DNA from: an uncultured Clostridia bacterium
Lineage (GTDB): Bacteria; Bacillota; Clostridia; TANB77; CAG-508
Direction: 5' to 3'
DNA: 64,000 nt
Assembly (NCBI GenBank): GCA_944386325.1
Contig: CALXAP010000008.1
Location: forward strand, 1 to 64,000
Part shown: positions 2,151 to 53,946 of the stretch, in pieces
Layout: every line of letters starts with the position of its first letter
Position numbering within the stretch: position 1 is the stretch's first letter
Notes under the pieces: model-generated
The model's database searches: none
Told to the model about the DNA's origin: nothing
Seen by the model: the letters and a program-made list of their open reading frames with translations, nothing else
Made by a program: the position numbers and the translations under genes

Positions 2151-3647
2151 TTGAAAAAAATACAAGTTTTTTTATTTAATACTGTAATATTAATAATAAC
2201 TTCACTTATAATTAGCTCATGTTCAATGTTTTTTGATATATATGTTGCTAATAAAATTGGTAGTGAAGCTATAGGATTATTTGGACTAATTATGTCTGTA
2301 TACATGTTTGCAATGACTATAGCAAATTCTGGTATAAGTTTAGCTTCAACTAGAATTGTAGCAGAAGAACTGTCTTTAAATTCTGAATCTGGTGCTAAAA
2401 TTGCTATACGAAAATGTATATTGTATAGTTTATTTTTTGGTAGTATTGCTTGTATTCTTTTAGTAGTTCTTTCGCCAATCATATGTAAATACATACTACA
2501 TGACAGGATATCAAGTATAGTTTTATATATTATTGCTATAAGTTTACCATTTTCATCTGTTACTATATCAATAACAGGATATTTTACAGGTGTAAAAAGA
2601 ATATATAAAAATTCTCTTTATGATATATTTGGTTTGTTTATTAAAATAATTTTTATTGTTACTGGCTTTAAATTCTTTAATTATGAAAACATAGAATCAG
2701 CTTGCATAATATTAGTTGGAGCAAATACGCTTTCTGAGATATTTTCATTTATATTCTTATATATTTTATATTTTTTCGATAGTAGAAAAAATTTATCTAA
2801 AACTAGAAATGATAAAAATAATTATTTTAAAAGAATATTAAAAATATCATTGCCTGTTGCAATAACTTCATATGTAAGGTCAGGCTTATCTACTATAAAA
2901 CATTCACTAATTCCAATAAGACTTGAAAAGTCTGGTCTTTCTTGTGAAGCATCTTTATCTACATATGGAATGATAAATGGTATGGCAATGCCAATACTAA
3001 TGTTTCCTGCTCTTATTGTAAATTCTATTTCTAGTTTACTTATACCTGAATTTGCTCGTTATAACATAAAAAAAGATTTCAAAAGAATGAATGAAATAAT
3101 AAATATACTTTTTAGATTAGTAATTACATTTTCTATATGTATTATTGGAATATTTTTATTATTTCCAAATGAAATTTCTAAATTCACATATAATAATATA
3201 GAAATTGCAAAATTTGTTTTACTTCTTTGTCCTTTACTCTTATTCATGTATTTAGATCATGTAATTGATGCTATTTTAAAAGGTATAGATAAACAAGTAG
3301 GTGTAATGTTTTGTAATATCTTAGATTTATTTATAAGTATTTTTTTAATATACAATCTAATACCTATTTTTGGTATAATGGGATATATTATAGTAATTTA
3401 TATTAGCGAGTTTTTAAATTTTTCTGTTAGTTTATTTCAATTATATAAAGCAACTAAATTTAATCTGAATATTATAAAAGTATTAGTTATTCCTCTTATT
3501 TCTATTTTTATAACAATGATTATTACAACTAATTTATTTACTTATACCAATAATATTATTAATATTGTTTGTAATATAATTATTTTTATTTTAATTTATT
3601 TATTTGTTAATATATATTTAAATATTATCAAAAAAAAATTCCAATGA
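2151..3647 (+). CDS. spoVB: MATE/MOP-superfamily flippase, SpoVB-like
   Basis: Polytopic inner-membrane protein of 498 residues with roughly 12-14 hydrophobic segments. It belongs to the MOP flippase superfamily (SpoVB/MurJ/Wzx), which moves undecaprenyl-linked sugar precursors. Members like this are annotated as stage V sporulation protein B and act in spore cortex synthesis. The N-terminal pattern MFFDIYVANKIGSEAIGLFGL and a central ARYN stretch after ASLSTYGMINGMAMP fit the family. The start is TTG at 2151 behind AAGGTGAT, with no closer ATG. A SpoVB role rather than another flippase role is inferred from the sporulating host. Confidence 0.78.
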   Translation: MKKIQVFLFNTVILIITSLIISSCSMFFDIYVANKIGSEAIGLFGLIMSVYMFAMTIANSGISLASTRIVAEELSLNSESGAKIAIRKCILYSLFFGSIACILLVVLSPIICKYILHDRISSIVLYIIAISLPFSSVTISITGYFTGVKRIYKNSLYDIFGLFIKIIFIVTGFKFFNYENIESACIILVGANTLSEIFSFIFLYILYFFDSRKNLSKTRNDKNNYFKRILKISLPVAITSYVRSGLSTIKHSLIPIRLEKSGLSCEASLSTYGMINGMAMPILMFPALIVNSISSLLIPEFARYNIKKDFKRMNEIINILFRLVITFSICIIGIFLLFPNEISKFTYNNIEIAKFVLLLCPLLLFMYLDHVIDAILKGIDKQVGVMFCNILDLFISIFLIYNLIPIFGIMGYIIVIYISEFLNFSVSLFQLYKATKFNLNIIKVLVIPLISIFITMIITTNLFTYTNNIINIVCNIIIFILIYLFVNIYLNIIKKKFQ

Positions 3648-3665
3648 AATCTCATTGGAATTTTT
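3634..3665. terminator. bidirectional terminator
   Basis: AAAAATTCCAATGA and TCATTGGAATTTTT form a hairpin between the convergent spoVB and the first small paralogue. The spoVB stop lies inside it. Confidence 0.85.
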
Positions 3666-3672
3666 AGAATAG

Positions 3673-3984
3673 CTAATCATGCTCAGCATGTTGCTGAACT
3701 TTATAAAATTCTTTATCTCCTTCCTTAAAAATTTTTTTATCGTTATTTTCATCCTTTTTAAAACGATATGAAAAATAACAAGTTAAAGCTTTGTATATTC
3801 TGCTGTTTACTTTTTCCTTTTCTACCAAAATCCATGTAGATTTTTTTTGTAATACAGCTGAATTACTTTTTTGAAGTAGTTCAGAAACAATTATCCAATC
3901 CTCTTTAGTTAATGTGTAGACATACACATTAAGAGCGATTAAATTCTTAGCATTCTTAACTATTCTTTTGTTTGTAAACTGCAT
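3673..3984 (-). CDS. small protein, paralogue 1 of a tandem triplet
   Basis: Family not recognised. The 103 residues share a pattern with the genes at 4195 and 4670: LTKEDW near the start, then KKSTWI.V, KAL..YF.YRFKK and a final FY.VQ. No signal peptide or membrane segment is seen. It is basic, and a compact alpha/beta, possibly nucleic-acid-binding, fold is only a guess. It has its own promoter (4024-4052), AAGGAGG before the ATG, and a terminator. The conserved Trp and the YRFKK basic patch are the residues to watch. Confidence 0.7.
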   Translation of the reverse strand: MQFTNKRIVKNAKNLIALNVYVYTLTKEDWIIVSELLQKSNSAVLQKKSTWILVEKEKVNSRIYKALTCYFSYRFKKDENNDKKIFKEGDKEFYKVQQHAEHD

Positions 3985-4023
3985 ATAATTATACAGCCTC
4001 CTTTATAATTGTGATATAAATAT

Positions 4024-4052
4024 ATTATACTCTACATATTATGTAAAGTCAA
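4024..4052 (-). promoter_or_regulatory. sigma-A-type promoter of paralogue 1
   Basis: Minus strand: TTGACT, 17 bases, TATAAT. The spacer begins TTACATAATA, which is also found in the promoters of the other two paralogues. Confidence 0.8.
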
Positions 4053-4071
4053 TTTTAACAATTATAACATT

Positions 4072-4133
4072 TATTATTGAGCCGAAAAAATTATAAGATA
4101 TTATTATATCAAGTTCCTATAGCGTAAATTTTA
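4072..4133 (+). repeat. R1 fragment (right end)
   Basis: Matches the right end of the R1 element (ATTGAGCCGAAAAA...ATATTATTATATCAA...). The left arm and hairpin centre are absent. Confidence 0.65.
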
Positions 4134-4138
4134 ACAAA

Positions 4139-4176
4139 AAATCTCTAATATTATTAAATATTAGAGATTTTTTAGT
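4139..4176. terminator. terminator of paralogue 2
   Basis: AATCTCTAATATT pairs with AATATTAGAGATT and is followed by a T run. The terminator after the third paralogue (4630-4668) is nearly the same sequence. Confidence 0.8.
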
Positions 4177-4194
4177 ATAATAAACTACTTATTT

Positions 4195-4551
4195 CTAAAA
4201 TAGTTTACCATACCTTTTTTGAACAAGGAAAAAATTCATACCTTCCTTTTTCTTTACATATCGCTTATTATCTTTTGTTTTCTTAAAGCGATAATTAAAG
4301 TAATTAACAAGGGCGTCTACAACGTTTTCCGATAAAACATCTTGCGACACTTCTATCCATGTCCTTTTTCTGGATATCCGCACTTCCTGAGATCGTTTTT
4401 CCAGTACATCAATCACCTGCCATTCTTCTTTTGATAGTTTCTTCATATAATACTCAATTGTTTTTAATCTTGCTTGTGCAATGTTCGCAAGCATTTTTTC
4501 CCGTTCAATTTCCATTTCTTTTTCATTAATTTCAAGATTTTCTTTAGTCAA
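4195..4551 (-). CDS. small protein, paralogue 2 of a tandem triplet
   Basis: Unrecognised protein of 118 residues with the pattern of its neighbours: LSKEEW, then RKRTWIEV, DALVNYFNYRFKK and FFLVQK. A charged helical N-terminus (about 1-35, rich in Glu and Lys) precedes the shared domain. The start is TTG at 4551 behind AAGGAGGAG. Codon use is less AT-rich than its neighbours and includes two in-frame CGG codons (4378-4380 and 4501-4503), which suggests different ancestry or recent arrival. It is transcribed as a unit of its own from the promoter at 4585-4614. Confidence 0.7.
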   Translation of the reverse strand: MTKENLEINEKEMEIEREKMLANIAQARLKTIEYYMKKLSKEEWQVIDVLEKRSQEVRISRKRTWIEVSQDVLSENVVDALVNYFNYRFKKTKDNKRYVKKKEGMNFFLVQKRYGKLF

Positions 4552-4584
4552 AGTAATCTCCTCCTTAAGTCTTAGCTAATATAT

Positions 4585-4614
4585 ATTATAACATTTCTAA
4601 TTATGTAAAGTCAA
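4585..4614 (-). promoter_or_regulatory. sigma-A-type promoter of paralogue 2
   Basis: TTGACT, 18 bases beginning TTACATAATTA, then TATAAT. The proximal spacer is conserved with the two sister promoters. Confidence 0.78.
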
Positions 4615-4629
4615 ATACAAAAATCAATA

Positions 4630-4668
4630 AACCTCTAATATTATTAAATATTAAAGGTTTATTTTTAG
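4630..4668. terminator. terminator of paralogue 3
   Basis: AAACCTCTAATATT / AATATTAAAGGTTT hairpin followed by ATTTTT. It closely resembles the terminator at 4139. Confidence 0.75.
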
Positions 4669-4669
4669 A

Positions 4670-5224
4670 TTAATATATATCTTTTGCTATAACAGCATAT
4701 CTTACACCATTTAGATTAGCATTTACTATAATTAAATTATAATATTTTAATGCTAATTGTATTTTCTCAGTTAACAATCTACTAAAAACTAATACAATTT
4801 TTTTTCTAGAAACAATATATTTATATACAATCCAATCAAAAATCTCTTTTTCTGTCTCATTTAATTCTATAGTTCTCTTTTTCTGAATCATATAAAATTT
4901 TATTCCATTTTCTTCTACAATTCTATTTTTACCATTGATTTCTTTTTTTACCCTAAAGTGATAATAATCTACTAAAACTTTTTTTAACATTGGAGTTATA
5001 GAATTTACTCTTACTTTTATCCATGTAGATTTTTTTGATTTCATAGCAGATCTAGAATTATTGTCTAAATTTGTTATTAAATCAAATTCTTTTTTAGTTA
5101 ATTTGTTAATGTACTTTTTTATAAGCTTTAATCTCATCCATCCTAAAACATATTGAATCTTTTGCTTTTCCTTTCTTATTTTTTTTATAAAGTTCCGTAT
5201 CTTCATGTCTTCTGTGTAAAACAT
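4670..5224 (-). CDS. small protein, paralogue 3, with a second degenerate domain copy
   Basis: Unrecognised protein of 184 residues. Residues about 40-120 carry the family pattern: LTKKEF, SKKSTWIKV, KVLVDYYHFRVKK and FYMIQKK. The extra C-terminal half (about 121-184) looks like a worn second copy: LNETEKEIFDWI, then LVFSRLLTEKIQLALKYY and NGVRYAVIAKD line up with the first copy in the same order. This suggests an internal domain duplication. The start ATG follows AGAGGAGG. It has its own promoter and terminator, like its sisters. Confidence 0.68.
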   Translation of the reverse strand: MFYTEDMKIRNFIKKIRKEKQKIQYVLGWMRLKLIKKYINKLTKKEFDLITNLDNNSRSAMKSKKSTWIKVRVNSITPMLKKVLVDYYHFRVKKEINGKNRIVEENGIKFYMIQKKRTIELNETEKEIFDWIVYKYIVSRKKIVLVFSRLLTEKIQLALKYYNLIIVNANLNGVRYAVIAKDIY

Positions 5225-5259
5225 ATATTATAGCCTCCTCTAAAAAATTAATTACCATT

Positions 5260-5288
5260 ATTATATACTTTCTATTATGTAAAGTCAA
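5260..5288 (-). promoter_or_regulatory. sigma-A-type promoter of paralogue 3
   Basis: TTGACT, 17 bases beginning TTACATAATA, then TATAAT. This is the third copy of the same promoter block. Confidence 0.8.
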
Positions 5289-5318: not shown

Positions 5319-5458
5319 TATTTATTCAGGAGTAGAATTAATATCTTCAATTTTTAAGAAATAGCTCTGTAGCGCGGGCGAACGCTGCTTTCCCCTACAG
5401 CTATTCTATTAGATTTTTTGTATTTTAGGTTTTATAGATTTTACCTCTTAATAGTTAC
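5319..5458 (+). repeat. R2 repeat, full copy
   Basis: R2 is about 140 bases. Its left end TATTCAGGAGTAGAAT is an imperfect inverse of its right end ATTTTACCTCTTAATAGTTAC. The palindromic core is GTAG-GCGGGCGAAC...CCCCTAC. MITE-like by shape, with no coding capacity. Confidence 0.7.
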
Positions 5459-5600
5459 TTCATTTTTTAGAAATAGCTATGTAGTGCGGGCGAACTTTGT
5501 TCGCCGCTACAATTATTCCATTAAATTTTTTACAATTTATAAACATGTTATTTGTTAAATATTATATTTTTCTATTCAGGTTTTATAGAATTACACCTTA
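5459..5600 (+). repeat. R2 repeat, second tandem copy
   Basis: Directly follows the previous copy: TTTTTAGAAATAGCT, then GTAGTGCGGGCGAAC TTTGTTCGCC, ending ATAGAATTACACCTTA. It is more worn at the ends. Confidence 0.6.
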
Positions 5601-5980: not shown

Positions 5981-6157
5981 ATGATACGGATTTATAAAAT
6001 GTTAAAAAACTTAAAACGTTGTATTATTTGTTTTTTTGAATTTTTAAACAATCCTGGAAAAGTAATTGATGAAATCTTTTACATTCCAGAAGTGTTTAAC
6101 CCCTTGGATAAATCAGAAATTGATGATATATTATCCAAAAAAGAAGCAATCCAATGA
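5981..6157 (+). CDS. small hypothetical protein
   Basis: 58 residues, family not recognised. It starts at 5981 behind AAGAAGGGG. Basic and aromatic at the N-terminus (KMLKNLKRCIICFF), then acidic (DKSEIDDILSKKEA). Its stop codon lies inside the hairpin at 6143-6172. Being closely packed with its own terminator supports a real gene. It contains one CGG codon. Confidence 0.5.
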   Translation: MIRIYKMLKNLKRCIICFFEFLNNPGKVIDEIFYIPEVFNPLDKSEIDDILSKKEAIQ

Positions 6158-6172
6158 TTGCTTCTTTTTAAT
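6143..6172. terminator. bidirectional terminator
   Basis: AAGAAGCAATC / GATTGCTTCTTTTT hairpin between the small + gene and the 3' end of the fab operon. Confidence 0.8.
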
Positions 6173-6945
6173 TAAATCCCCATTATTTCATATCCATTAT
6201 CAGCATAAATTACTTGCCCTGTAATACATCTTGACATATCACTAAATAAAAATGTTACAACATCTCCAACTTCTTCTTTTGTCACATTTCTTTTTAATGG
6301 AGCTCTTTTTTCAACAACATCTAATATTGTATTAAAATCTTTTATACCTTTTGCAGATAATGTTTTTATTGGTCCTGCAGATACTGCATTTACTCTTATA
6401 TTCTTATTTCCAAGTTCACTTGCTAAATATCTTACACTACTTTCAAGTGCTGCTTTTGCAATTCCCATAACATTATATCCATTTAAAACTTTTTCTGCTC
6501 CATAATAACTTAATGCTACTAAACTTGCATCATCACTTAACAAATCAATTTCATCTGCTATTCTAGCAACAGCAACAAAAGAATATGCACTTATTTCACA
6601 CGCATGTAAAAAACCTTCTCTTGATGTTTTAATAAAATCATTTCTCAAATCTTCTGTATTTGCATGTGCAATACTATGTAATATACAATCTATTCTGCCA
6701 AACTTTTCTTTTATCTTGTTAAAAGTTTCTTTTATTGCTTCATCATTTGATACATCACATTGATATAAAGTAGCATTTGGAATTTCTTCTAATAATTGTT
6801 TTGATTTTTCACCACTACTTTCTGAATTATATGTAAATATTATATTTTTTGCTCCAGCTTTATATGCTGATAATGCTGCTCCCCATGCAATACTCCATTT
6901 ATTTCTAATTCCCATAATCAGAACATTTTTACCTTCTAATATCAT
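6172..6945 (-). CDS. fabI: enoyl-ACP reductase FabI
   Basis: Catalyses the last reduction of each fatty acid elongation cycle, converting trans-2-enoyl-ACP to acyl-ACP with NAD(P)H. The 257-residue SDR fold has the FabI-type N-terminus GIRNKWSIAWGAA instead of the usual TGGxxGIG. The catalytic Tyr-x6-Lys is in YNVMGIAK, and the ending ITGQVIYADNGYEIMG is typical. It is the last gene of the operon, 16 bases after accA. Using FabI rather than the flavoprotein FabK is notable because many Clostridia carry FabK. Confidence 0.92.
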   Translation of the reverse strand: MILEGKNVLIMGIRNKWSIAWGAALSAYKAGAKNIIFTYNSESSGEKSKQLLEEIPNATLYQCDVSNDEAIKETFNKIKEKFGRIDCILHSIAHANTEDLRNDFIKTSREGFLHACEISAYSFVAVARIADEIDLLSDDASLVALSYYGAEKVLNGYNVMGIAKAALESSVRYLASELGNKNIRVNAVSAGPIKTLSAKGIKDFNTILDVVEKRAPLKRNVTKEEVGDVVTFLFSDMSRCITGQVIYADNGYEIMGI

Positions 6946-10867: not shown

Positions 10868-12112
10868 CTATACCTCTTTCCATGCCTTTAATATAATACT
10901 ACTATTATGTCCACCAAATCCCAAAGAATTAGACATTACATAATTTAATTCTTTTTCTCTACCTTTGTTTGGAACAATATCTAAATCACACTCTTCATCT
11001 TTAACTTTATATCCAACAGTTGGTGGTAAAAAAGAATCTTTTATTGCTTTTACACAACAAATTGCTTCAACCCCTCCTGCTGCTCCTAATAAGTGTCCTG
11101 TTGCTCCTTTTATAGATGACATAGCAAATTCATATGCATGCTCACCAAAAACACTTTTTACAGCTGCTGTTTCATATTTATCATTTAAGCATGTTGATGT
11201 TCCATGTGCATTAACATAGTCAACCATATCTGGTGAAATATTTGCATCATTTATTGCATTTTTCATTGCTCTTGCTCCACCTTCACCTTCTGGGGCTGGG
11301 GCTGTTATATGAAATGCATCAGATGCTGTTCCATATCCTACTACTTCAGCATATATTTTTGCACCTCTTTTTTTAGCATGTTCTAATTCTTCTAATAATA
11401 TTATTCCTGCTCCTTCTCCCATTACAAAACCATTTCTTTCTTTATCAAAAGGTATACTCGCTCTTTGTTTATCTTGTGTTGTTGATAAAGCTTTCATATT
11501 AGCAAAACCTGCTACACCTATAGGATTTATAGAAGCCTCTGTTCCACCTGCTAACATTAAATCTTGATATCCGTGTTTTATTATTCTATAGCTTTCTCCT
11601 ATTGCATGCGTACCACTTGCACATGCTGTAGTAATTGCAAAAGACTCTCCCTTAGCTTTAAATTCTATAGAAACATTTCCTGCTGCCATATTTAATATTG
11701 CCATTGGTATAAACATAGGAGATACTCTATCTGGACCTTTTTCATTTAATATTTTACATTGATTATCTATGGTTGTTAACCCACCGATTCCTGAACTTAT
11801 TGCAACACCAAATCTTGTGCTATCTATATTATTAATATCTAAATTAGCATCTTTTACAGCTTCTCTTGAAGCAATTAATGCAAATTGTGAATATCTATCT
11901 AATCTTTTTGCCTGTTTTTTCTCAAAATAATCTTCTGGATTATAATTTTTAACTTCACCTGCAAGCTTTACTTTAAAATTATCAGCATTAAATAAAGTTA
12001 TATTATCTATTCCGCTTTTACCTTCTTTTATTCCTTTCCAAAATTCTTCTACATTATTTCCAACAGGAGTTATAGCTCCCATTCCTGTAATAACAACTCT
12101 TCTCGTACTCAT
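10868..12112 (-). CDS. fabF: 3-oxoacyl-ACP synthase II FabF
   Basis: Condensing enzyme that extends acyl-ACP with malonyl-ACP. The 414 residues carry the Cys-His-His triad: Cys in [12 protein letters not shown], His in [12 protein letters not shown] and His in [14 protein letters not shown]. The N-terminus [15 protein letters not shown] is typical. Its stop almost touches the accB start, which points to translational coupling. Confidence 0.95.
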
Positions 12113-22155: not shown

Positions 22156-24045
22156 TTATCTTTTCCGGACCCAAATACCTCCATAAGGAGATAATACATT
22201 TGTGTCATCCGAATCATTAATCTTGAAGATGACATTTTTGTTTCGAACGAAATTTGATATATCCATTTCCTTTCTTGTTCTATTAACAGCCATAACAATT
22301 GTGTTTTTACCAAGAGATCTTTCTGCGATAAACACATTGTTATCTATGTGAATTATCCTAAATTCGCCTTCTTTAAAAATGGTGTTCGCTTTTCTCGTTT
22401 TTGCAAGTTCGATAAAGAATTCTAATAATTCCTCATCTTCCTGCCCCCAAGGATATGGCTTCCGATTAAACGGATCTTTATAACCAGTCATTCCAACTTC
22501 GTCTCCATAATATATGGATGGAACCCCTGGTACAAAGAATTGTATGAGAGAAGCAATTTTAAATCTTTTCTTACCAAGTTTATATTGATCTTCAGTAAGT
22601 TCATCTCGATTCTTCTGCCAAATACGGTCTTGCCAGATTTCTCCTACTTCGTGATAGGTTTCACCACCTAATATAGAAATTCCTCTTTCTACATCATGTG
22701 TAGAAATGAAATTCATATTGGCATGAAGAGCAGGTTTTGGATATTGTTCCACAATTCTCATTAAAGTATTGTAGAAATTACCTCTTACCCTTTTATCCTC
22801 GTCACCATCTGTTAGAATATATTCTAACAATGGTTTTCTTAAAAAGTAATTCATTACTGAATCTACTTTTTTCCCAAGTAGATAATCTTTTCTCTCAGAA
22901 TATGCTTCTTTGAGAATTGCATCCTCCCAAACTTCAGCAATAATGATTGCCTCTGGATTAACAGATTTTACTTTCTTTCTAATCAATTCTAAAAATTGAT
23001 TAGGCAATTCATCTGCTACATCTAATCTAAATCCAGATACACCAAGCTTTAGATAATGTTCTAGTACCTCGCAAATATAATTCTGATAATCAGAATTATT
23101 TTTTTCAATTTCTGGTAAACTTTTATGTCCCCACCAGCACTTATATTCTTCTGGATAATTTATGAACTTAAACCATCCAAAGAACTTTGATGATGGATCA
23201 TTATATGCTCCGCCAGATCCAAAAGTTTGATACTTATTAAAGTATTTACTATCCGCACCAACATGCGAATAGACTCCATCTAATATTATCCTCATACCTC
23301 TTTCCTTTGCCTTTTGACAAAGTTCTTTCAAATCCTCTTCGTTTCCAAGTAAAGGATCTACTTTCTTGAAATCTCCAGTATTGTAACGATGATTTTCATT
23401 TGCTAGACTAATCGGATTCAAATAAATTGCTGTTACTGACAATTTTTCTAGATAATCTAATTTGTCAATAATTCCTCTGATGTCTCCACCATAGAAATCA
23501 TTGTTTAAAATTTTCCCTTTTTCATCCGGCAAATAATCAGGAAACTCATGCCATTTTTTTAATTTACGCCCTGGAATATGCTTTATGTTTTTTCCAGATG
23601 AATTAAATCTATCTGGGAAAATTTGATACATTATACCACCATAAATCCAGTCTGGAACTTCTCTTCCTTGATATGAATGGATAACTAAATCATAATGGAA
23701 ACCTCCATTATTTAAAATGTCTGCATCATTATCTTGCCAGTTTCGCTTTATTAAAAAACTTCTTCCATCATTTGTGACTGATTGGAAACAATATGAATAT
23801 CTACCAGACTTATAAATTGCAAAACGCAATCTATATACATCATGGAATTCATCATGTTCGAATTTATCCATGATTAATTCCATAACTGGAATTTGATAAT
23901 TATCATTACCAAATACCAATAACTTAGTATACATTACATTCAAATCTTTCCGAAGAAGAATACTTATGCGAATCATTTCGCCCACTTTAACAGCTCCAAA
24001 AGGAGATTTGAATTTTTTTAAAAAAGAATTGTAAATTCGGGTCAT
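22156..24045 (-). CDS. GH13 alpha-glycosidase (neopullulanase / maltodextrinase-like)
   Basis: 629-residue cytosolic amylase-family enzyme with no signal peptide. About 1-125 is a CBM34-like N-domain, followed by the TIM barrel: GVYSHVGADS, the nucleophile Asp in GFRLDVADEL, the acid Glu in IIAEVWEDA and the third Asp in STHDVERG. Probably cleaves maltodextrins or pullulan and would feed the ROK glucokinase gene next to it. Base composition and codon use are clearly less AT-rich than its neighbours, with three CGG arginine codons, so transfer is likely. AGGGAGG precedes the ATG. Confidence 0.85.
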   Translation of the reverse strand: MTRIYNSFLKKFKSPFGAVKVGEMIRISILLRKDLNVMYTKLLVFGNDNYQIPVMELIMDKFEHDEFHDVYRLRFAIYKSGRYSYCFQSVTNDGRSFLIKRNWQDNDADILNNGGFHYDLVIHSYQGREVPDWIYGGIMYQIFPDRFNSSGKNIKHIPGRKLKKWHEFPDYLPDEKGKILNNDFYGGDIRGIIDKLDYLEKLSVTAIYLNPISLANENHRYNTGDFKKVDPLLGNEEDLKELCQKAKERGMRIILDGVYSHVGADSKYFNKYQTFGSGGAYNDPSSKFFGWFKFINYPEEYKCWWGHKSLPEIEKNNSDYQNYICEVLEHYLKLGVSGFRLDVADELPNQFLELIRKKVKSVNPEAIIIAEVWEDAILKEAYSERKDYLLGKKVDSVMNYFLRKPLLEYILTDGDEDKRVRGNFYNTLMRIVEQYPKPALHANMNFISTHDVERGISILGGETYHEVGEIWQDRIWQKNRDELTEDQYKLGKKRFKIASLIQFFVPGVPSIYYGDEVGMTGYKDPFNRKPYPWGQEDEELLEFFIELAKTRKANTIFKEGEFRIIHIDNNVFIAERSLGKNTIVMAVNRTRKEMDISNFVRNKNVIFKINDSDDTNVLSPYGGIWVRKR

Positions 24046-27951: not shown

Positions 27952-28190
27952 AGGCTATAAAACAAGATAAAGAATTTGATATAATAATATTAAATAAATT
28001 TTGAATGCGATTGGAGATATTTTTAGAATTTGTTATATAATTTAATGAGGAATGTTCATGGGCAAAATCTTTGATTTTGAGCCTGAATGAAAGAGGCGCA
28101 TTAAATTATATTATAAATTCTTAAATATCGTATTGAGCCGAAAAATTTATAAGATATTATTATATCAAATTCTTATGCCGTGAATTATAA
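27952..28190. repeat. R1 element, copy A
   Basis: About 230 bases that are nearly one long palindrome. Outer arms are AGAATTTGATATAATAATATT and its inverse, middle arms AATGCGAT/ATCGTATT and AGAATTTG/CAAATTCT, inner arms TTAATG(A)G/CTCATTAA or similar. The centre is GGGCAAAATC-TTT-GATTTTGAGCC. Copies B and C share it almost throughout. No coding capacity. Confidence 0.8.
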
Positions 28191-28244
28191 CATTAAAAAC
28201 ATATTTTTTGTTATAATAATATTGTTTTGAAAGGATAGATTATT

Positions 28245-32647: not shown

Positions 32648-32871
32648 GTTACAGTTCACGGCATACGATTTTGAAATAATAATATTGAATAAATTTTGAA
32701 TGCGATTGGAGATGTTTATAGAATTTGTTATATAATTTAATGAGGAATGTTCATGGGCAAAATCTTTGATTTTGAGCCTGAATGAAAGAGGCTCATTAAA
32801 TTATTTTACAAATTCTTAAATATCGTATTGAGCCGAAAAATTTAGGAAATATTATTATTTCAAAATCTTTA
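32648..32871. repeat. R1 element, copy B
   Basis: Begins GTTACAGTTCACGGCATACG, with the same nested arms and centre as copy A (TTCATGGGCAAAATC...GATTTTGAGCCTGAA). Lies in the gap between two minus genes. Confidence 0.8.
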
Positions 32872-53320: not shown

Positions 53321-53353
53321 AAAAATAAGAGTAGCATGTGCTACTCTTATTTG
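53321..53353. terminator. terminator of the next minus gene
   Basis: AAATAAGAGTAGCA / TGCTACTCTTATTT perfect stem. Confidence 0.85.
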
Positions 53354-53946
53354 AGGATTCTTTTACCGCACTCGTTTAAATAATTGATATCGGCAATAAT
53401 TCGTTCATGCCCCCTTTTCAGCAGTTTCCATTCCGGAGTTTCTGCTAGACCTGCATCTTTAAGCCTTTGATTGAGTTCCTCCCAGTTCTCCTTGTCATAC
53501 TCTAGAAAACTGGTCATATTTTCAACAGTGAACTTAAAGTTCAAACTCGGGTCTTTATCGAACCAATATTTTGATTCAATAGCCAGATCCCCCAGATCAT
53601 GAAGTTCCCTCTTTGAGAGGAACTGTTGTTCTGCAGAAATCTGCAGATCGAGTTCTGTATAAACAGCTTTGGCGGTTTCGTAGAACCTTTGCTTTTGTTC
53701 CAATGGATTTTCCACTGGAACAGTATATTCCGACTTTTCCTTCTGCTGTTCTACAATTTCACGCTCCTGTTTATACACATTGTCAGGGGGCGAGAAAATT
53801 AGAAATGTTGTGGTTGCTGTAACAACCCCAACAAGCAAAAGAATCATTGTCTTAACCTTATTTTCCTTAATAAGATTAAGAACCTTTGCTAACCGTCCTT
53901 GTTTGTTTTCCTTTTTTTCTTGATTTAAATCTTTTACATTTGTCAT
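53347..53946 (-). CDS. single-pass membrane protein, unknown
   Basis: 199 residues. A basic N-terminus (about 1-34), one membrane helix (MILLLVGVVTATTTFLIF) and a charged helical extracytoplasmic part (EREIVEQQKEK..., then AVYTELDLQISAEQQF...). Family not recognised. The DNA is clearly less AT-rich than its surroundings and uses one CGG arginine codon, so foreign origin is likely. AAGGGAGG precedes the ATG. Similar base composition to the small secreted protein at 29.1 kb. Confidence 0.6.
   Translation of the reverse strand: MTNVKDLNQEKKENKQGRLAKVLNLIKENKVKTMILLLVGVVTATTTFLIFSPPDNVYKQEREIVEQQKEKSEYTVPVENPLEQKQRFYETAKAVYTELDLQISAEQQFLSKRELHDLGDLAIESKYWFDKDPSLNFKFTVENMTSFLEYDKENWEELNQRLKDAGLAETPEWKLLKRGHERIIADINYLNECGKRILK

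Follow-up and report, generated by a model that had tools for sequence, protein, structure and literature searches.

Three adjacent minus-strand genes of the window (the whole 64,000-nucleotide stretch of clostridial DNA that was analysed) form a real and sharply bounded array, which encodes a genus-restricted protein family and carries strongly conserved promoters common to all of its members. Our leading interpretation, held tentatively and at somewhat less than an even chance, is that these genes arose long ago as tandem paralogues, that they encode a small nucleic-acid-binding regulator specific to the genus, and that all of them are controlled through a single dedicated operator, plausibly by the proteins themselves. 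Lineage-specific tandem paralogues under shared control are a known kind of arrangement, and the array is a variant of it. The genes and the neighbours that delimit them are as follows.

3673..3984, minus strand: gene 1, 103 amino acids, net charge +7; orthologue 55% identical in genome G037 (L013:973-1293:-)
4195..4551, minus strand: gene 2, 118 amino acids, TTG start, net charge +8; orthologue 58% identical in G037 (L013:1498-1842:-)
4670..5224, minus strand: gene 3, 184 amino acids, net charge +25, with an additional C-terminal part of ~65 amino acids
2151-3647, opposite strand to gene 1: convergent flippase gene of the SpoVB/MurJ type, named by reading its sequence
6172-6945: FabI-like ORF, the first of a fatty-acid synthesis cluster, named by reading its sequence

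The three products share 28–31% pairwise amino-acid identity along one common domain, and a search of their own 1.69 Mb genome with gene 2 recovered the other two paralogues (E values of 1e-12 and 1e-11) and no significant match beyond them, which bears out the preliminary description of three adjacent genes with a common domain. The array is bounded on one side by the flippase gene and on the other by a small membrane-protein gene, followed by the fatty-acid synthesis cluster. Reading of the surrounding ORFs identified the flippase, FabI, acetyl-CoA carboxylase subunits, FabZ and FabF, and no mobile or defence genes were recognised beside the array. Each gene lies alone between its own promoter and its own terminator, with no two-gene operon among them.

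The promoter elements are located at the following positions.

4038..4052, minus strand: 15-bp element TTGACTTTACATAAT (−35 box plus nine spacer bases) of gene 1
4024..4029, minus strand: −10 box TATAAT of gene 1
4600..4614, minus strand: 15-bp element TTGACTTTACATAAT of gene 2
4585..4590, minus strand: −10 box TATAAT of gene 2
5274..5288, minus strand: 15-bp element TTGACTTTACATAAT of gene 3
5260..5265, minus strand: −10 box TATAAT of gene 3

All three promoters have the layout TTGACTTTACATAAT-N8/9-TATAAT, with 11 of 12 consensus matches and −35/−10 spacers of 17, 18 and 17 for genes 1, 2 and 3, respectively; the earlier assignment to each gene of its own promoter with the same extended −35 region was thus correct, the 15-mer being exact at all three. 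In the 1.69 Mb genome these are the only exact copies, and no further copy was found at one mismatch, indicating that the 15-mer works for these genes specifically rather than as a general sigma-factor signal. At two mismatches 20 sites were found, compared with 22 for a reversed-pattern control, so that only the exact copies rise above chance. One of the two-mismatch copies lies inside the reading frame of fabF in the window (10930-10944); a one-mismatch copy in G037 (C3:61072), which, judged by distance, seems to be the counterpart of that fabF copy, was set aside as a chance occurrence. None of the viral contigs searched carries the promoter motif.

When the five intact promoters (three from the window and two from G037) were aligned on the motif, 15 of 15 columns within it were identical, compared with none of the 25 preceding bases being fully invariant; the spacer bases 3′ of the 15-mer also vary. 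The coding sequences of the genes are only 47–65% identical as DNA (28–58% as protein), and the 15-mer is therefore most likely a selected element, as judged from these sequence alignments. G037 carries the exact 15-mer at both of its surviving genes and a remnant of it at the deleted third. The promoter of the homologue in G062, a further genome of the genus, has TTGATT and TATAAT only (the contig begins just upstream), so control through the 15-mer is not conserved across the genus. Operators of dimeric proteins are often palindromic; the 15-mer is not. A palindrome in the spacer before gene 1 (TACATAATATGTA) was considered as an operator and dropped, since it is not retained in the other four promoters.

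The genes end in the following hairpins.

3634..3665, both strands: bidirectional terminator hairpin that serves both gene 1 and the flippase gene convergent to it, z −5.0
4128..4181, minus strand: terminator hairpin of gene 2, z −5.4
4626..4663, minus strand: gene 3 terminator hairpin, a relative of the gene 2 hairpin, z −5.9

The preliminary description had the terminators as similar, which is true in part: every gene has a strong hairpin and those of genes 2 and 3 resemble one another (77% across 60 nucleotides), but that of gene 1 is unrelated to them and bidirectional.

Searches of Pfam, NCBIfam, PHROGs, PADLOC and PDB sequences with the array proteins returned chance-level matches only (the best PADLOC match, at E 0.016, came from one member alone), and no match to the family was found in phage, plasmid or viral-contig collections. 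Neither Pfam nor NCBIfam gave a match to a helix-turn-helix family, no toxin family was matched, and a literature search returned nothing relevant. The proteins had been described as unknown, and profile searches together with structure prediction recognised no known family for them, housekeeping or other.

An AlphaFold2 model of gene 1, built on six sequences, has a mean pLDDT of 85.5 and comprises two helices, a strand, a nine-residue helix, a second strand and a beta hairpin, with a predicted core domain of ~75 residues in the order helix-strand-helix-strand-hairpin. Foldseek found nothing under E 1 in the PDB and nothing below E 0.05 among viral structures. With a structural aligner, for which Z scores below 8 may reflect a common arrangement only, all matches fell below that value: for gene 1 the CodY C-terminal domain (5.2), Smr (5.1), CtsR (4.7), R3H (4.4) and S8 and ArsR proteins (~4), and for gene 3 CENP-K (6.6), Alba (6.2), R3H (5.1) and CtsR (5.0), with MarR also among the weak neighbours. 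Most of these are nucleic-acid-binding folds, which hints weakly at such a function for the modelled domain, although at Z below 8 the likeness may be one of arrangement only.

Two of these likenesses deserve comment. The R3H domain (PF01424; found in KhpB/Jag and Smubp-2) has the same helix-strand-helix-strand-strand order as the family model, and 59 of 62 residues of the R3H structure 1msz align with the model (Z 4.4-5.1, rmsd 2.9), a result tied by many unrelated entries. R3H domains are defined by an Arg-x3-His signature that the array proteins do not have; the second helix reads SRIYKAL, SENVVDAL and TPMLKKVL in genes 1–3, with no histidine there in any member. R3H domains of KhpB proteins from the same bacterial family gave hhalign probabilities of only 0.8-1.5% against the array profile, in an alignment that was short, out of register and little above a reversed control, and Pfam R3H gave no match. 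Membership of the R3H family was rejected on the signature and the profile comparison, and the likeness of the model to it is probably one of common arrangement only. The winged-helix domain at the C-terminus of CodY resembles most of the gene 1 model weakly (Z 5.2 over 83 residues, rmsd 3.7), and Z scores of 3.3-5.2 were obtained against several of the winged helix-turn-helix repressors (CodY, CtsR, ArsR and MarR). The helix-turn-helix of those repressors consists of two helices, whereas the model has a single nine-residue helix, with a three-residue turn in place of the first.

Gene 3 had been thought to hold a second, worn copy of the domain. The predicted secondary structure of its C-terminal 65 residues (helix, strand, helix, strand, strand) does agree with the order of the first domain, at low confidence (pLDDT ~34-51), but three sequence tests do not support the idea: a profile comparison with the first domain gave an hhalign probability of 0.4-0.5%, 248 of about 3000 shuffles scored as well as the actual alignment, and HMM scoring gave no support for common descent. 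A worn domain copy in the C-terminal part is at most a suggestion of the predicted structure.

Repressors of the CodY, CtsR, ArsR and MarR type bind over the promoters that they repress, and the operators of autoregulated bacterial repressors overlap their own promoters. Such operators likewise consist of a conserved stretch across the −35 box and spacer of the genes concerned. The array differs from them in that its element precedes three diverged tandem paralogues and is unique in the genome at one mismatch, and in that binding is here only presumed. For the array we infer nucleic-acid binding, auto- or cross-regulation, and repression rather than activation. The array would be an old tandem set in which a small basic protein, confined to the genus, is represented by three paralogues, each transcribed as a separate unit. 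The 15-bp element, which spans the −35 box and the first spacer bases, would serve as a dedicated operator bound by one regulator of all three promoters, for which the simplest candidate would be one or more of the array proteins. The bound protein would compete with RNA polymerase at the −35 box and spacer, and the array proteins would thereby restrain their own and each other's synthesis. The element is private to the array, the products are small and basic with a predicted nucleic-acid-binding type of fold, and auto- and cross-regulation is the most economical reading.

The main rival to auto- and cross-regulation is a separate regulator: the array would then be a small regulon whose transcription factor is unrelated, is encoded elsewhere and reads the 15-mer, and the array proteins would have some other role, such as binding RNA or ribosomes or inhibiting an enzyme. 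The promoter data in themselves point to no more than a single factor reading all three promoters, and the predicted fold is also compatible with the RNA-binding domains R3H, S8 and Alba. An outside regulator devoted to three adjacent paralogues alone is a less economical arrangement than autoregulation, however, and no regulator gene was recognised beside the array; we consider this explanation rather unlikely, while still taking it seriously.

Relatives were sought with a single sequence among 145 genomes of the taxonomic family and then with a profile. Two other genomes belonging to the same genus contain clear relatives, with two genes in G037 and a single one in G062, and the profile confirmed the family in all three genomes of the genus examined. 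In samples of 385 genomes of the order, 391 of the class and 398 of the phylum, the profile returned only short or stop-interrupted chance matches. A match in another genome (G136, E 0.008) was dropped, being an ORF without the shared motifs that was absent from the profile search. A survey of neighbours in other species, as the preliminary description had proposed, showed that in both G037 and G062 a family gene is convergent to and adjoins the same flippase gene.

In a tree of the family, gene 1 clusters with its counterparts in G037 and G062, gene 2 clusters with its own in G037, and gene 3 forms a long branch. Since genes 1 and 2 each pair with an orthologue, the duplication is older than the split between the window species and G037. 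Gene 3 survives in G037 only as its 3′ end (82% DNA identity across 154 columns), which abuts the beginning of the gene 3 promoter element, the result of an internal deletion.

Genes 1 and 2 are 55% and 58% identical between the window and G037, compared with 81% for the small membrane protein, 92% for a flippase fragment and 98% for a FabI fragment, and both dN and dS of the two genes lie above those of their neighbours. Against its G037 orthologue gene 1 has a dN/dS of ~0.34, and gene 2 a dN of 0.29 with saturated dS. Third-position G+C is 0.22 in gene 1 and 0.29 in gene 2, compared with a mean of 0.127 for ORFs of the window, and this may perhaps account in part for the raised dN and dS. 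By these estimates the array genes evolve fast under purifying selection on average, the dN/dS coming from gene 1 and each pair comprising two sequences. The diversifying selection that had been suggested finds no backing in these values, which are two-sequence averages and do not describe single sites. Dosage, the other suggested cause of the repetition, is unlikely given a divergence of the proteins to ~30% identity; the repeated promoter points to common regulation instead.

Rapid divergence relative to the neighbours, the loss of one copy in G037, the raised third-position G+C of genes 1 and 2, and confinement to one genus might together be expected of anti-phage or mobile-element cargo in rapid turnover. 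This explanation appears improbable: the defence, phage, plasmid and viral searches described above gave no match to the proteins, nor any viral contig the promoter, the dN/dS of gene 1 lies at ~0.34, and the same locus is found beside core genes in sister species. The link to defence or phage raised in the preliminary description is accordingly not upheld. Small basic proteins with a repeated, promoter-overlapping element also recall in plan the autoregulation of antitoxins, and the genes could in principle be antitoxin-like, or orphan components of toxin–antitoxin systems, repressing their own promoters; the genes stand singly between promoter and terminator, form no two-gene operon and match no toxin family, and we regard this explanation as very unlikely. 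Decay of functionless duplicates might explain the remnant in G037 and the fast divergence, but is similarly hard to credit given that the other five frames (in the window and G037) are intact, that dN/dS of gene 1 is below 1, and that ribosome-binding sites and invariant promoter elements are present.

In a more specific picture, diverging tandem paralogues of a family private to its genus, with a domain of no recognised family, would remain wired together by a private 15-bp operator and so make up a small closed circuit of self- and cross-regulation at a core locus; we advance this picture as doubtful. The array is a clear case of regulation outlasting coding sequence, in that paralogues at ~30% identity keep an identical, genome-unique 15-bp element in two species. 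Should the proteins bind the 15-mer, the array would show a lineage-specific family arising, duplicating and staying under its own control, and would provide a testable function for an otherwise unplaced family of uncultured Clostridia; should they not, it would be an ordinary lineage-restricted paralogue cluster.

Several features of the surrounding DNA were also recorded. One of them adjoins the array.

4052..4135: dispersed MITE-like repeat, half copy, immediately upstream of the gene 1 promoter

G037 has a different sequence at the place of this half copy. The full element is ~220 bp long, with imperfect inverted ends and internal hairpin-like repeats, and occurs in the window at 27972-28192, 32650-32867 and 38569-38788; one copy begins GTTACAATTCATGCTATACGAATTTGATATAATAATAT. 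At least ~40 near-full copies are present in the window genome and at least several in G037, and the element is essentially absent from G062. It had no match in Rfam at gathering level.

Beyond the gene 3 promoter, a GC-rich palindromic element (TGTAGCGCGGGCGAAC...CTACA) is present as a direct repeat (79%) at 5350-5427 and 5462-5539, contrasting strongly with the AT-rich DNA around it. A small ORF on the plus strand (5981-6157) has its final codons (KKEAIQ and stop) within a terminator-like hairpin (AAAGAAGCAATC...GATTGCTTCTTTTT); the N-terminal half of its G037 counterpart is strongly diverged and the hairpin end is kept. Elsewhere in the window, minus-strand ORFs at 53347-53946, 60719-61123 and 22156-24045 have third-position G+C of 0.24-0.38, compared with the mean of 0.127, and are possibly recent arrivals. 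Finally, positions 1-45 of contig L014 in G062 consist of apparent Nextera adapter sequence (AGATGTGTATAAGAGACAG) at the contig start, an assembly artefact in a public genome.
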